Shown: positions 2,885 to 7,586 of the stretch, piece after piece | Numbering within the stretch: the stretch's first letter is position 1 | Layout of the letters: every line of letters starts with the position of its first letter | Assembly: GCA_027081015.1 (NCBI GenBank) | Contig: JALWMA010000106.1 | Span: 12,506-68,806, forward strand | Origin: Campylobacterales bacterium | GTDB taxonomy: Bacteria > Campylobacterota > Campylobacteria > Campylobacterales > Hydrogenimonadaceae | DNA length: 56,301 bases | Reading direction: 5' to 3' | The notes under the pieces: generated by a model | Databases searched by the model: none | Told to the model about the DNA's origin: nothing | What the model saw: the letters and a program-made list of their open reading frames with translations, nothing else | Position numbers and translations under genes: made by a program

Positions 2885-3313
2885 ATGGAGTGCGAATTTC
2901 CGACGATCAATGCCGATACCGAGGAGATCAGGCAGATCTTCAGAGAGGTCGAGACGATTGCCGTGGTGGGGCTCTCGCCCGATCCGTCGAAAGCGAGCCA
3001 CAGGGTGGCGAAATATCTCAAAGAGGCAGGCTACAGAATTGTTCCGATCTATCCGAAAGAGGATGAGATACTGGGAGAGAAGGTATACCGCTCTTTGAAA
3101 GAGATTCCTTTTAGAGTCGATATGGTCGATATATTCAGAAAGTCGGCCGCGGTAGGTCCCGTGGTCGAGGCGTGCATAGAGCGCGGAGACGTGAGGGTGG
3201 TCTGGATGCAGGCCGGCATAGTCAACAACGAAGCAGCCGCAGCCGCAAAAGAGAGAGGTATGAGGGTGGTTCAGAGCAGGTGTGCGATGGTAGATCACAT
3301 GGAGTATGCATGA
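2885..3313 (+). CDS. CoA-binding domain protein (YccU-like)
   Basis: The 142-residue product is a single Rossmann-type CoA_binding_2 domain. It shows the nucleotide-binding start (IAVVGLSPDPSKASHRVAKYL), then YPKEDEILGEKVYRSL and WMQAGIVNNEAAAAAKERG, which are typical of the YccU family; the C-terminal CAMVDH also fits. YccU proteins resemble the CoA-binding domain of succinyl-CoA synthetase alpha, but no reaction is established. ATG 2885 is preceded by AAAGG at 2874-2878. The stop overlaps the ilvA start (ATGA), so the two are co-translated. Confidence 0.85.
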   Translation: MECEFPTINADTEEIRQIFREVETIAVVGLSPDPSKASHRVAKYLKEAGYRIVPIYPKEDEILGEKVYRSLKEIPFRVDMVDIFRKSAAVGPVVEACIERGDVRVVWMQAGIVNNEAAAAAKERGMRVVQSRCAMVDHMEYA

Positions 3314-4521
3314 TAACGCTCGACGATATAAAGAGGGCCCATGAGGAAGTACGGAAGGTAGCGGTAAAGACACCATTCTCCTACGCTCCTAAACTGAGTG
3401 AAGCTACCGGCTTCGAGGTCTATCTGAAGAAGGAGAACCTGCAGAATACCGGTTCGTTCAAGATTCGGGGGGCCTTCAACAAGATCGCCTCGTTGAGCGA
3501 AGAGGAGCGCTCCAAAGGGGTTGTGGCCGCAAGTGCGGGCAACCATGCCCAAGGGGTCGCCCTGGCTGCGAAATATTTCGAGATACCTGCTACGATAGTG
3601 ATGCCCGAAACTACCCCTCTGACGAAAGTCGACGGGGTCAAGTCGTACGGTGCGGAGGTGATTCTTTCGGGTACGAACTATGATGAGGCGTACGCTTACG
3701 CGGTAGAGTATGCGAAAAAAAGCGGGCGTGTTTTTGTCCACCCTTTCGCGGACGACGAGGTGATCGCGGGGCAGGGTACGATAGCGCTGGAGATACTCGA
3801 ACACTGCGAAGCGCCCGATGCAGTTTTGGTTCCGGTGGGAGGCGGCGGACTCATAAGCGGTATTGCGGTGGCTATGAAATCCCTCTCTCCGAAAACCAGA
3901 GTCATAGGGGTGGCCGCTTCCGGCGCCCCGGCGATGAAACTCTCGTTCGACGCGAAGAGGCAGATCGATACCGTCAAGGTGCGCACTATAGCCGACGGAA
4001 TCGCTGTAAGAGATACATCCGAAAAGACTCTGAAGTACATTTTGAAGTATGTGGACGATATGATACTCGTCGACGACGAAGAGATAGCCAACGCGATTCT
4101 CTATCTTCTGGAGAAGCAGAAGCTGGTCGTGGAGGGGGCCGGTGCTGTCGGGGTCGCCGCTCTGATCCACGACAAGATAGATCTTCCGAAGGGTTCGAAG
4201 GTCGTATCTCTTCTAAGCGGCGGCAACATAGATGTCACAATGCTCTCCGTAATCATAGAGAAGGGTCTTCTGAAGTCGTACAGAAAGATGAAGCTGGTTG
4301 TCACGCTCGTCGACAAGCCGGGCAGCCTGATGCTTCTTACGCAGATTCTCAAAGATGCACAGGCCAACATCGTACAGATAGGCTACGACAGGACCTCCCT
4401 CGATCTTAAGTTCGGTGACGCCTATGTGTCGATAGCCCTGGAGACCAAGGGGAGAGAGCACCAGGAGCTTATAGAGAGCATGTTGCACGAGAACGGATTC
4501 CGCTTCGAAGTGAAACATTAG
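3310..4521 (+). CDS. ilvA: Threonine ammonia-lyase (threonine dehydratase)
   Basis: PLP enzyme converting threonine to 2-oxobutanoate and ammonia, the first step toward isoleucine. Of 403 residues, 1-~315 form the fold-type II catalytic domain: the Schiff-base lysine is K51 in SFKIRGA, the phosphate loop is GGGGLISG near 176, and SGGNID lies near 302. Residues ~325-403 form one ACT domain (LVVTLVDKPGSLMLL), the medium, single-ACT type rather than the 514-residue E. coli type. ATG 3310 overlaps the preceding stop. ilvB-ilvN lies 3 kb downstream, consistent with a biosynthetic role. Confidence 0.92.
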   Translation: MITLDDIKRAHEEVRKVAVKTPFSYAPKLSEATGFEVYLKKENLQNTGSFKIRGAFNKIASLSEEERSKGVVAASAGNHAQGVALAAKYFEIPATIVMPETTPLTKVDGVKSYGAEVILSGTNYDEAYAYAVEYAKKSGRVFVHPFADDEVIAGQGTIALEILEHCEAPDAVLVPVGGGGLISGIAVAMKSLSPKTRVIGVAASGAPAMKLSFDAKRQIDTVKVRTIADGIAVRDTSEKTLKYILKYVDDMILVDDEEIANAILYLLEKQKLVVEGAGAVGVAALIHDKIDLPKGSKVVSLLSGGNIDVTMLSVIIEKGLLKSYRKMKLVVTLVDKPGSLMLLTQILKDAQANIVQIGYDRTSLDLKFGDAYVSIALETKGREHQELIESMLHENGFRFEVKH

Positions 4522-4550: not shown

Positions 4551-6650
4551 ATGATTATAGAAAAGCGTCTCGGTTTTCGCCACTCCATCACGGCCGTAAA
4601 GGAGCTTGCCGGTCGTCGTGTAGCGATACTCGACAGCTCCAATTCGGTACGCATCTTCTCTACCGAGCCGATAACTCTCGTCGACGGTTTCAAAACATCC
4701 CTCGCACAGAACGACAAACTCCTTCACGGTGCCGACATATCCGAAGACGGCAGGTATGTCGCCTTCTGCGTCCAAAAGGAGGGTGTGGCGGTTTTCGACG
4801 GAAAGAGCAAGAGGCTTCTGTACCGCTTCAAAAGGCATGAAGGGGATGTCGAGAGTCTCTGCATAAGCCGCAAGCATAGATATCTTGCAACCGGCGGGCA
4901 GGACGGAAAGACATTTTTGTGGAGCCTCTCTACCGGCCGCATGGTCGCCTCTTTGCCCCACCACTCCGACTTCGTAACCGCCATAGCCTTCAGCCCCAAC
5001 GGCCAGTGGATCGCGACCGGAAGTTTCGACCGCAAGATAATTGTAACCAACATCTCCTCCCTCTCCCACGGCTTCAGACTCAAGGGCCACTCGAAGGCTA
5101 TTACCGAGCTGCTCTTTATAGGATCCCATCGTCTTGTAGCCGCAGACAAAGATGGGGAGATATCGGTCTGGGATTACTTCGGGACCAGGGTGATAAAGAG
5201 GCTCAAAAAGATGTTCGACGAGGTGACTGCTCTGAGTGTGACGCCAGACGAGAGGTTTCTCTTTGCAGCGGACAAAACCGGTGCGGTTTCGCTCTACGAT
5301 CTGAACAGTTACGAGCTTGTCGCCCTGCGCTATCTTCAGTATACAAAGCCGGTAAAGAGGCTCTGCTACCTCCTTGAGGGGAACCATCTCGTAGTGGGTC
5401 TGGCTGACGGCGAGGTGACGTTCAATTCGCCCCTAAAGGAGAGCCGCAAAATGGAGGAGTTCATAGCCTCCGGCGACCTGGCTTCGGCTTACAGGCTGGC
5501 AGAGGAGAATCCGCTTCTGCGTTACAGCGACGAATATATGAGGCTCGAAGCTCTCTGGAACGGAGCGTTCCAAAAGGCGATGTCGCTGCTTGAACTCGGC
5601 AGAAAAGAGGAGGCTAAAAAGATACTCGAACCGTTTGGCGTGGAGGCTTCCAAACGGCTGCTCGCACAGCAGCTGGTCAACGACTTCGCCGATTTTCAGA
5701 AGTTCAAAGCCGCCGTAGAGGGGCAGAAGTACCAGCTCGCCTACTCGATGGCTGCCAGCCACCCCATGCTGAAGCAGAACCGCTACTACGAGATGATGGA
5801 GAGCGAGTGGGAGAAGCGCTTTTCACGCGCTAAGAAGATCGTGATGCAGAAAGGGGGAGAGGAGAGGGCCAAAGAGCTTTTGAAGCCTTTCAGGGGTATT
5901 TCGGACAAAAGCAGGGTGATCCAGGCGCTGTTGAGCGAGAAGGAGATATACAGACTTTTTATGAAGCTTGTCGCAAAACGGGACTTCAAGGGTGCGATAG
6001 AGCTGGCGAAGCGTTATCCGGCGATCATGGAGCTCGACGAGTACAAAAAGATAGAGAAGATAGCGGATATAATCGCAAAGAGGGCATCTGCCGAGCTCGA
6101 AGCGGGAAACTATGCGGAGGCTGCACGCCTCGCGTCGCAGCTCAAGGAGTTTCCCGATATGAGGGAGAGGGCGGAGGAGCTGATAGAGACGGCCAACCTC
6201 TACGCATCGGCCATGCGCTACTTCGCACAGAAAGATTACGGCGCCATCTACGCGATTCTGGAGCGTCACCCCGAGCTCGAAGATACTAAGATAGTACAGA
6301 ACCTCGAAGAGGCGTGGCGCAAAGTTGTGACGAGAGCCGAAAAAGCCGCCTCTTCGGGCGAAGTTGGAGATTTGAAAAAGATCTTCGCCCCTTTCCTTTC
6401 ACTGCAGCAAAAGAGAGCGAAAATGGTGAGTCTATTCAAGCAGGCCTATATCGTGCAGATCGAGAACGCGCTAAAAAGAGGGGCGGACGTTTCGGCCGCC
6501 GTCGGTCGATACCTTGAGCTCTTCGGCATGGATGACGAAATAGGCTCCTGGCTTGCAGAGCGCGGAATGAAGGAGAGGTTCCCGGAAGAGGAGCGGAAAG
6601 ATACCGCTCAAACGGATATAGACTCCCTGCCCGAAAGCGTGACGGAGTAG
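4551..6650 (+). CDS. WD40 beta-propeller protein with tandem C-terminal helical repeats
   Basis: The function is not recognised. Residues 1-~295 form a WD40 propeller; clear blades are near 96-130 (RHEGDVESLCIS...LATGGQDGKTFLWSL), 137-170 and 179-211 (GHSKAITELLF...DGEISVWD). From ~309 the protein is all-helical and built of tandem ~84-residue repeats beginning near 311, 396, 481, 564 and a partial one near 645. Each opens with A-hydrophobic-LA-x3-P (AYRLAEENP, AYSMAASHP, AIELAKRYP, IYAILERHP), and repeats 1, 2 and 4 have an AK-x-IL-x-PF-like segment midway. There is no signal peptide or membrane segment, so it is probably cytoplasmic. GAGGT precedes ATG 4551. It lies in one run with ilvA and the phosphatase gene. 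Confidence 0.75.
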   Translation: MIIEKRLGFRHSITAVKELAGRRVAILDSSNSVRIFSTEPITLVDGFKTSLAQNDKLLHGADISEDGRYVAFCVQKEGVAVFDGKSKRLLYRFKRHEGDVESLCISRKHRYLATGGQDGKTFLWSLSTGRMVASLPHHSDFVTAIAFSPNGQWIATGSFDRKIIVTNISSLSHGFRLKGHSKAITELLFIGSHRLVAADKDGEISVWDYFGTRVIKRLKKMFDEVTALSVTPDERFLFAADKTGAVSLYDLNSYELVALRYLQYTKPVKRLCYLLEGNHLVVGLADGEVTFNSPLKESRKMEEFIASGDLASAYRLAEENPLLRYSDEYMRLEALWNGAFQKAMSLLELGRKEEAKKILEPFGVEASKRLLAQQLVNDFADFQKFKAAVEGQKYQLAYSMAASHPMLKQNRYYEMMESEWEKRFSRAKKIVMQKGGEERAKELLKPFRGISDKSRVIQALLSEKEIYRLFMKLVAKRDFKGAIELAKRYPAIMELDEYKKIEKIADIIAKRASAELEAGNYAEAARLASQLKEFPDMRERAEELIETANLYASAMRYFAQKDYGAIYAILERHPELEDTKIVQNLEEAWRKVVTRAEKAASSGEVGDLKKIFAPFLSLQQKRAKMVSLFKQAYIVQIENALKRGADVSAAVGRYLELFGMDDEIGSWLAERGMKERFPEEERKDTAQTDIDSLPESVTE

Positions 6651-6653
6651 ATC

Positions 6654-7586
6654 GTGGTAGCCATAGATCTCGGTTCCAACACGTTGAGGGGTGTGGAGAT
6701 GGAGTGCAGGAGCCTCGAGCCTGCGGCGTGGTTCGAAAAGATCGTCAGAACCGCCGACGGCATACATAAAAGCGGCAGGATAAGCGAAGAGGCGGTGGTA
6801 CGCATCGTCGAGGCCCTGAACGAGGCGAAGGGTGTGCTCGACTTTTCGCAGCCCGTAGCGGCCGTTACGACGCAAGCGCTTCGAAAGGCTTCGAACGCCG
6901 AAGAGGTACTGAACAGAATCAGAAGCGAATGCGGTATCGACTTCAGGGTAATAGGCGGCGAAGAAGAGGCATACTATACGCTTTTGGCCGTAAAAAACCG
7001 TCTCGAAAAGATCGGGATGGAGAGCGATAACTTCGTCATGGCCGATCTCGGGGGCGGCTCTACGGAGATTCTCTTTTTCGATTCGGGCAGGGTAGAGAGC
7101 CGCAGCTTCGATATAGGCATAGTCACCGTCGCCCAGAAGTACGGCTCCGCAGAGAGGATAGGGCAGGCCATGCCGCACCTTACAAAAGATCTGCGGAGAT
7201 TTGCGGAGAGTATGAGGGCCGAAGGGTTCGACCCTAAGCTCTTCGTCTCTACGGCGGGAACGCCGACGACGGTCGCTGCGATGAAGCTCGGAATGAGTTA
7301 CGCGACCTATGATGCTAAAAAGATAAACGGCACCACCCTGCAGAGAGCGGATCTGAAGATCCAGATGGACAGGCTGCTCTCTTTGGACGAAGAGTCGAGG
7401 CGGGAGCTGGTAGGGGTCGGCAGGGAGGATCTGATCGCTGCGGGTATCACGATTTTGGATGGGCTCTACTCTCTTTTGGGGTTCGATGAGAGTGTAGTTA
7501 TAGACGACGGGCTGCGTGAAGGTGTCGCGATCGCAGCTTGCCTCGGCTTTTTGGAGCGGCCCGGCGACCTTGTGCGTGGCGGGTAG
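6654..7586 (+). CDS. Ppx/GppA-family phosphatase
   Basis: ASKHA-fold protein of the exopolyphosphatase/guanosine pentaphosphate phosphatase family, about 310 residues (single-domain type, shorter than the ~500-residue E. coli Ppx). It has the phosphate-1 motif VAIDLGSNTLRGVE at the N terminus, the conserved segment VIGGEEEAYYTLLAV, phosphate-2 DLGGGSTEI and a late STAGTPTTVAA. The GTG start at 6654 follows the previous stop by three bases, with GGAG six bases upstream. Substrate (polyP or pppGpp) cannot be decided from sequence. Confidence 0.85.
   Translation: MVAIDLGSNTLRGVEMECRSLEPAAWFEKIVRTADGIHKSGRISEEAVVRIVEALNEAKGVLDFSQPVAAVTTQALRKASNAEEVLNRIRSECGIDFRVIGGEEEAYYTLLAVKNRLEKIGMESDNFVMADLGGGSTEILFFDSGRVESRSFDIGIVTVAQKYGSAERIGQAMPHLTKDLRRFAESMRAEGFDPKLFVSTAGTPTTVAAMKLGMSYATYDAKKINGTTLQRADLKIQMDRLLSLDEESRRELVGVGREDLIAAGITILDGLYSLLGFDESVVIDDGLREGVAIAACLGFLERPGDLVRGG

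Follow-up and report, generated by a model that had tools for sequence, protein, structure and literature searches.

The window analyzed here, a 56,301-nucleotide stretch of DNA from a member of the Campylobacterales, encodes a protein in which a seven-bladed WD40 beta-propeller is followed by a solenoid of exactly four all-helical repeats of 84/85 residues. This propeller-solenoid protein is the founding member of a family that, in this analysis, occurred in Campylobacterales alone. The reading that we favor, with a probability of about 0.6, is that it is a soluble cytoplasmic protein-binding scaffold and that, in the lineages where a paralogue is linked to a partner gene, it serves a redox sensor as its output partner. 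The gene lies at positions 4551..6650 (stop included) on the plus strand and its open reading frame encodes 699 aa. Orthologues within the genus, which is Hydrogenimonas by its named relatives, have the same length and are 52-84% identical to it.

A preliminary description of this DNA, made from the sequence alone, had assigned residues 1 to about 295 to WD40 blades, and both domain models and structure prediction bore this out. Pfam WD40 models cover residues 1-295 (4551..5435, plus strand), with a match of 92.5 bits against a cut-off of 27. The AlphaFold2 (AF2) model of the full protein, run with 26 sequences (mean pLDDT, 87.8; pTM, 0.78), contains 28 strands forming 7 blades at residues 2-293, mostly at pLDDT 88-96, and thereafter helices only. 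WD40 proteins of the PDB matched the propeller, and the top Foldseek match was the bacterial PkwA WD40 domain (5yzv; E 3e-17, TM 0.88 by target), which likewise is seven-bladed. PkwA is named as a kinase in the PDB; the propeller-solenoid protein instead joins its WD40 domain to a helical repeat that has not been described. The protein showed neither an enzyme domain nor a signal peptide or membrane segment. Its maximum 19-residue Kyte-Doolittle mean is 0.85, which argues against a transmembrane segment or signal peptide, and the net charge of its domains is small. Three other identities were considered and rejected. NCBIfam matches to tryptophan 2,3-dioxygenase scored 19-21 bits, where the cut-off is 391, and were attributed to chance helix similarity. 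A defence-system assignment rested on the PADLOC model HEAT-ARM_XIII, whose best stretch of match lay within the WD40 part (residues 11-163) and which had no match to the C-terminal part by itself. As for a viral origin, IMG/VR held no relative for the single peptide pattern used.

The periodicity of the C-terminal part was assessed by self-comparison, over residues 300-690, of a profile built from 30 homologues. Peaks were observed at offsets of 169 (score, 84.3), 85 (68.2), 84 (68.0), and 253 (65.8), far above the best of 200 column shuffles (18.5) and the best of 200 shuffles in seven-column blocks (24.6). A repeat HMM built solely from the orthogroup of the window's protein matched residues 306-389, 392-473, 475-557, and 559-641 at 78 to 93 bits. 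The four repeats, all on the plus strand, thus comprise residues 306-390 (5466..5720; 91 bits), 391-474 (5721..5972; 93 bits), 475-558 (5973..6224; 78 bits), and 559-642 (6225..6476; 85 bits). Of 43 paralogue sequences searched with the same HMM, 33 contained four repeats and another 9 contained three; it matched none of 861 neighbouring control proteins. In the AF2 model, each repeat consists of five helices of about 10-5-22-11-25 residues, a pattern common to all four. A model of the C-terminal part alone (pLDDT, 89.1; pTM, 0.55) gave helices nearly identical to those of the full model. Repeat 2, with a PFRGIS motif at residues 446-451, has the highest mean conservation of the four, and in it, around residues 420-480, AF2 confidence drops to its minimum for the model (about 72-79). 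Behind the repeats, capping helices (648-670) and a tail (6477..6647, plus strand) are seen in the AF2 model and the alignment, with a conserved LPxxI/V motif close to the end of the tail.

These results agree with most of what had been proposed for this region: a propeller followed by a regular helical solenoid built from an unnamed repeat of about 84 residues. The proposed repeat starts (311, 396, 481, and 564) are in the register of the HMM, shifted by about 5 residues, and the sequence contains both the AxxLAxxxP-like openings and, midway through repeats 1, 2, and 4, the (A/L)KxI/LxPF turns. A fifth, partial repeat had been placed at 645; the repeat HMM did not recover it, though the two helices at 648-670 follow there. 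The self-comparison and the confident prediction of regular helical repeats were checks that the preliminary description had itself suggested. Beyond residue 295, no Pfam match rose above its cut-off and NCBIfam gave chance matches only; no entry of Pfam, NCBIfam, or the PDB covered the repeat region. Of the two outcomes that would have spoken against the preliminary description, a lack of regular helical repeats and a Pfam domain already spanning residues 300-699, neither was observed.

Whether the solenoid is nevertheless an ordinary TPR-type one was considered, with units that have drifted beyond the Pfam models in what would be a generic chaperone or adaptor. TPR proteins are its best PDB matches (BamD by profile, P58IPK by fold), and they too are all-helical repeats with weak profile similarity to it. 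TPR models match weakly, at best with E 2.7e-4 in other family members and 0.035 in the window protein, and the self-comparison contains a weak half-period signal at offset 42. We nonetheless regard this explanation as quite unlikely. All TPR matches of the window protein fall under the curated cut-offs, and its unit spans 84-85 residues of alternating long and short helices (about 10-5-22-11-25), as opposed to the 34-residue TPR hairpin. The C-terminal profile matched nothing in the PDB below E 0.1, the best match being a BamD at 0.12. Similarly, Foldseek of the C-terminal model against the PDB returned nothing at E<=1e-3; its best matches were TPR proteins (P58IPK, E 0.07) and then IFT-A chains (E 0.11-0.5), and those listed had TM-scores (by query) below 0.2.

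The order of domains invites comparison with membrane coats, whose architecture is defined by a propeller at the N terminus and stacked alpha-helix pairs (SPAH) at the C terminus (PMC2799638). Santarella-Mellwig et al. (2010), working with proteomes downloaded in 2005, reported this layout among bacteria only for PVC (PMC2799638). The window protein has it as well, as judged from the two AF2 models (pLDDT 87.8 and 89.1). Some coat-like proteins of other bacterial phyla are said to have been added in a 2023 update. The PVC proteins share with ours an N-terminal beta-propeller and C-terminal stacked helices, but the three tabulated are larger (1,039-1,287 aa), and many PVC bacteria are compartmentalised (PMC2799638). 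The propeller-solenoid protein, at 700 aa in round figures, is set apart from them by its size, its four 84-residue repeats, and its occurrence in Campylobacterota. Eukaryotic coats, nucleoporins, and IFT-A subunits also combine a propeller with an alpha-solenoid, whereas our protein has a single propeller and a short solenoid of fixed length.

The preliminary description had likened the protein to eukaryotic membrane coats. As a statement about architecture this was correct. No homology was detected: neither the PDB profile search nor Foldseek gave a significant match to clathrin, COP, Nup, or IFT solenoids, and the Clathrin_H_link model reached 16.7 bits over 19 residues against a cut-off of 27.8. 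It could still be argued that the protein is a bacterial membrane coat, its solenoids polymerising into a lattice at the cytoplasmic membrane that shapes or organises the membrane in the manner of clathrin and COP subunits and, supposedly, the PVC proteins. The domain order and content are exactly those expected, with nothing besides the N-terminal propeller and C-terminal helical solenoid, and the IFT-A chains among the weak Foldseek matches belong to the same architectural class as membrane coats. We consider this very unlikely, given that the protein has no sequence or fold homology to solved coat proteins, lacks a membrane segment, has domains of small net charge, and has a four-repeat solenoid of fixed length that is short for a cage strut. 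Its neighbour genes are metabolic or sensory and not of the membrane-remodelling kind, and we know of no report of internal membranes in the carrier organisms. Convergence is the likeliest explanation of the layout shared with coats. The existence of a large multi-copy family whose repeat shows no evident kinship with coats is an argument that such a layout can arise convergently, and the layout alone is not a sign of coat function. Because the same design recurs across Campylobacterota, the layout is wider in bacteria than Planctomycetes and their relatives. New here are thus a propeller-solenoid family in another phylum, its undescribed 84-residue repeat, and, for some of its members, a sensory partner.

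The preliminary description had suggested a search for the repeat in other genomes, and this revealed a spread that it had not foreseen. The C-terminal profile matched in 135 of 394 good Campylobacterales genomes, often with two to five copies, and in 15 of 18 genomes of the genus. The family is large and of fixed length, with nearly all open frames at about 700-740 aa (most at 700-730 aa) and 1-5 copies per genome, and paralogues only about 20-30% identical keep the fixed design. Named relatives include Hydrogenimonas, Nautiliaceae, Sulfurimonas, Sulfuricurvum, and further Campylobacterales. Draws of genomes across the class and phylum gave matches within the same order only, and a GTDB-wide scan with one propeller peptide pattern, which reaches close relatives only, gave matches in Campylobacterota alone. 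In one taxonomic family (f13), read as Helicobacteraceae because the marker HP_OMP occurs only there, the protein was absent from the genera with HP_OMP, including one like H. pylori (g46); other Helicobacter-type genera of f13 have 1-3 copies. No member was found in f10, which was read as Campylobacteraceae from its consistently strong Campylo_MOMP matches. We found no paper on the propeller-solenoid family, and a 2017 survey of prokaryotic WD40 proteins nowhere mentions TPR, solenoid, Helicobacter, or epsilon.

Inspection of the paralogues' neighbourhoods revealed a partner that likewise had not been foreseen. In five taxonomic families (f4, f6, f8, f20, and f21), a gene for a PAS protein lies directly 5' of a propeller-solenoid paralogue, often overlapping it. 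The partner occurs as PAS alone (about 265-370 aa), as receiver plus PAS (378-438 aa), or as a membrane-sensor-like N terminus plus PAS (521 aa). A PAS/receiver gene on the same strand at -60 to +40 nt was found for 11 of 43 family genes and for 3 of 209 other genes of >=300 aa (p = 2.7e-7), a statistic inflated by related genomes and including one receiver-only protein located downstream (L115). At its C terminus, every PAS partner has a domain of about 120 residues resembling a degenerate PAS. It is uncurated and is carried by the FAD-type PAS or receiver-PAS proteins at L096:2055-2900, L125:4589-5875, L120:2524-4111, L113:9032-10132, and L121:1326-2543; in the member shown it had no Pfam match above cut-off and no significant PDB match. 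An HMM of this domain was run on 150 genomes with position information not used. All 16 of its matches below 1e-10, in 14 genomes, adjoin a propeller-solenoid gene, with two partners in tandem in two of the genomes (G020 and G039). Strong matches outside the model-building set were in G036 (22-nt overlap), G039 (gaps of 4-6 nt), G110 (overlap), and G064 (divergent). Those in G110 and G064 extend the link to f14 and f17, so that a paralogue directly beside a gene for a probable redox sensor of the FAD-type PAS kind, a further new observation, is now seen in seven families. Weaker matches (1e-4 to 1e-6) were mixed, that in G141 being adjacent and G064:C77 and others not. In f6, f8, and f20, partner and propeller-solenoid gene are both present or both absent in every genome among those listed.

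Against the PDB, the partner's PAS domain matched MmoS (3ewk, 1e-32), Aer (8dik, 3e-29), and NifL (2gj3, 1.5e-19), whose PAS domains are FAD redox domains. Unlike these sensors, which its PAS matches at 1e-19 to 1e-32, the partner showed no detectable chemoreceptor signalling domain, kinase, or DNA-binding output, nor was a cyclase or phosphodiesterase domain found, and it ends in the uncurated degenerate PAS-like domain. This suggests that the signal leaves through contact with another protein, the simplest candidate being the propeller-solenoid protein. In such a scheme, the partner would sense redox or energy state via its FAD-type PAS, in the manner of Aer, NifL, or MmoS, with or without a phospho-receiver domain, and its C-terminal domain would stand where a kinase, cyclase, or DNA-binding output is otherwise found. 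Operon linkage is no proof of binding, but the gene linkage predicts that this domain probably binds the neighbouring propeller-solenoid protein, which would thus be the output arm. The WD40 propeller and the four-repeat solenoid of fixed length may each offer one protein-binding surface, and we infer a scaffolding role from the classes of the two folds, together with the lack of catalytic or membrane features. The dedicated PAS/receiver partner is a first handle on the function of the family and suggests a kind of sensory output in which a protein scaffold takes the place of a kinase, cyclase, or DNA-binding domain. A bolder version, in which Campylobacterota evolved, independently of eukaryotes and PVC, a coat-like scaffold whose assembly at the cytoplasmic membrane is controlled by FAD-PAS redox sensors, a redox-switched membrane scaffold, is a long shot.

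Family members with no adjoining partner gene are the majority and include the whole orthogroup of the window's gene. In a tree of the family, the partner-linked members did not form one clade (5 changes, of which at least 2 are forced, in a test limited by fast-evolving long branches), which implies repeated gain or loss of the link. The partner-domain HMM found no homologue in Hydrogenimonas genomes. For both reasons the sensor reading is not directly transferable to the window gene.

The window gene lies, as had been stated, between ilvA (threonine ammonia-lyase; 3307..4521, plus strand; TIGR01127, 531 bits) and a Ppx/GppA-family gene (6654..7586, plus strand; PF02541, 6e-39). The product of the latter is short (310 aa), and its scores against the exopolyphosphatase and GppA models fall far short of their curated cut-offs. 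This neighbourhood raises the possibility that the protein works within a branched-chain amino-acid or stringent-response locus, where it would scaffold or regulate either IlvA/IlvBH or the Ppx/GppA phosphatase encoded next to it. The order CoA-binding protein-ilvA-propeller-solenoid gene-ppx-ilvB-ilvH-lpxD is conserved in Hydrogenimonas, most genomes of which show overlap or short spacing to ppx. Its first three genes keep their order in both Hydrogenimonas and Sulfurimonas/Sulfuricurvum-type genomes, and several families retain the ilvA adjacency even where identity is as low as about 30%. However, ppx lies 3' of the propeller-solenoid gene only in Hydrogenimonas and Sulfuricurvum-type genomes, other genes taking its place in Sulfurimonas and others. 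The Nautiliaceae orthologues lie instead between polA and mobA/moaC (names assigned by eye from the sequence), and other paralogues lie near recJ/fliI, ispG, or dprA. Dense strings of housekeeping genes are often functionally meaningless, and we judge a role in this locus unlikely. The adjacency to ilvA, the conserved upstream neighbour of the orthogroup, is an older link than that to Ppx/GppA. The latter had been proposed as a co-occurrence to check and does not hold as a general partnership; its absence from Nautiliaceae and Sulfurimonas means that it gives no general functional clue. Under the scaffold reading, the window's orthologue, kept beside ilvA in a genome with no partner, presumably is the scaffold of another complex.

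The neighbours polA, mobA, and moaC in Nautiliaceae and pyrG, recJ, and fliI beside Sulfurimonadaceae paralogues, all named by eye, were judged to be housekeeping genes and rejected as clues to function. In Sulfurimonas-type genomes, the place of ppx is taken by a conserved open reading frame of about 183 aa with several cysteines (L062:4462-5010 and L072:3580-4131), the L062 copy of which had no Pfam match. Close to their first propeller-solenoid gene, Nautiliaceae often have a second, shorter copy encoding about 610 aa (L073:3287-5107 and L077:6432-8276), with polA between the two on the opposite strand; in this short copy the match to the C-terminal profile ends at about position 318-334 of 404. 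Finally, one genome with four to five family genes (G037) has two propeller-solenoid genes in tandem, separated by a 34-nt gap, behind a gltX-like gene (L087:5818-10114).
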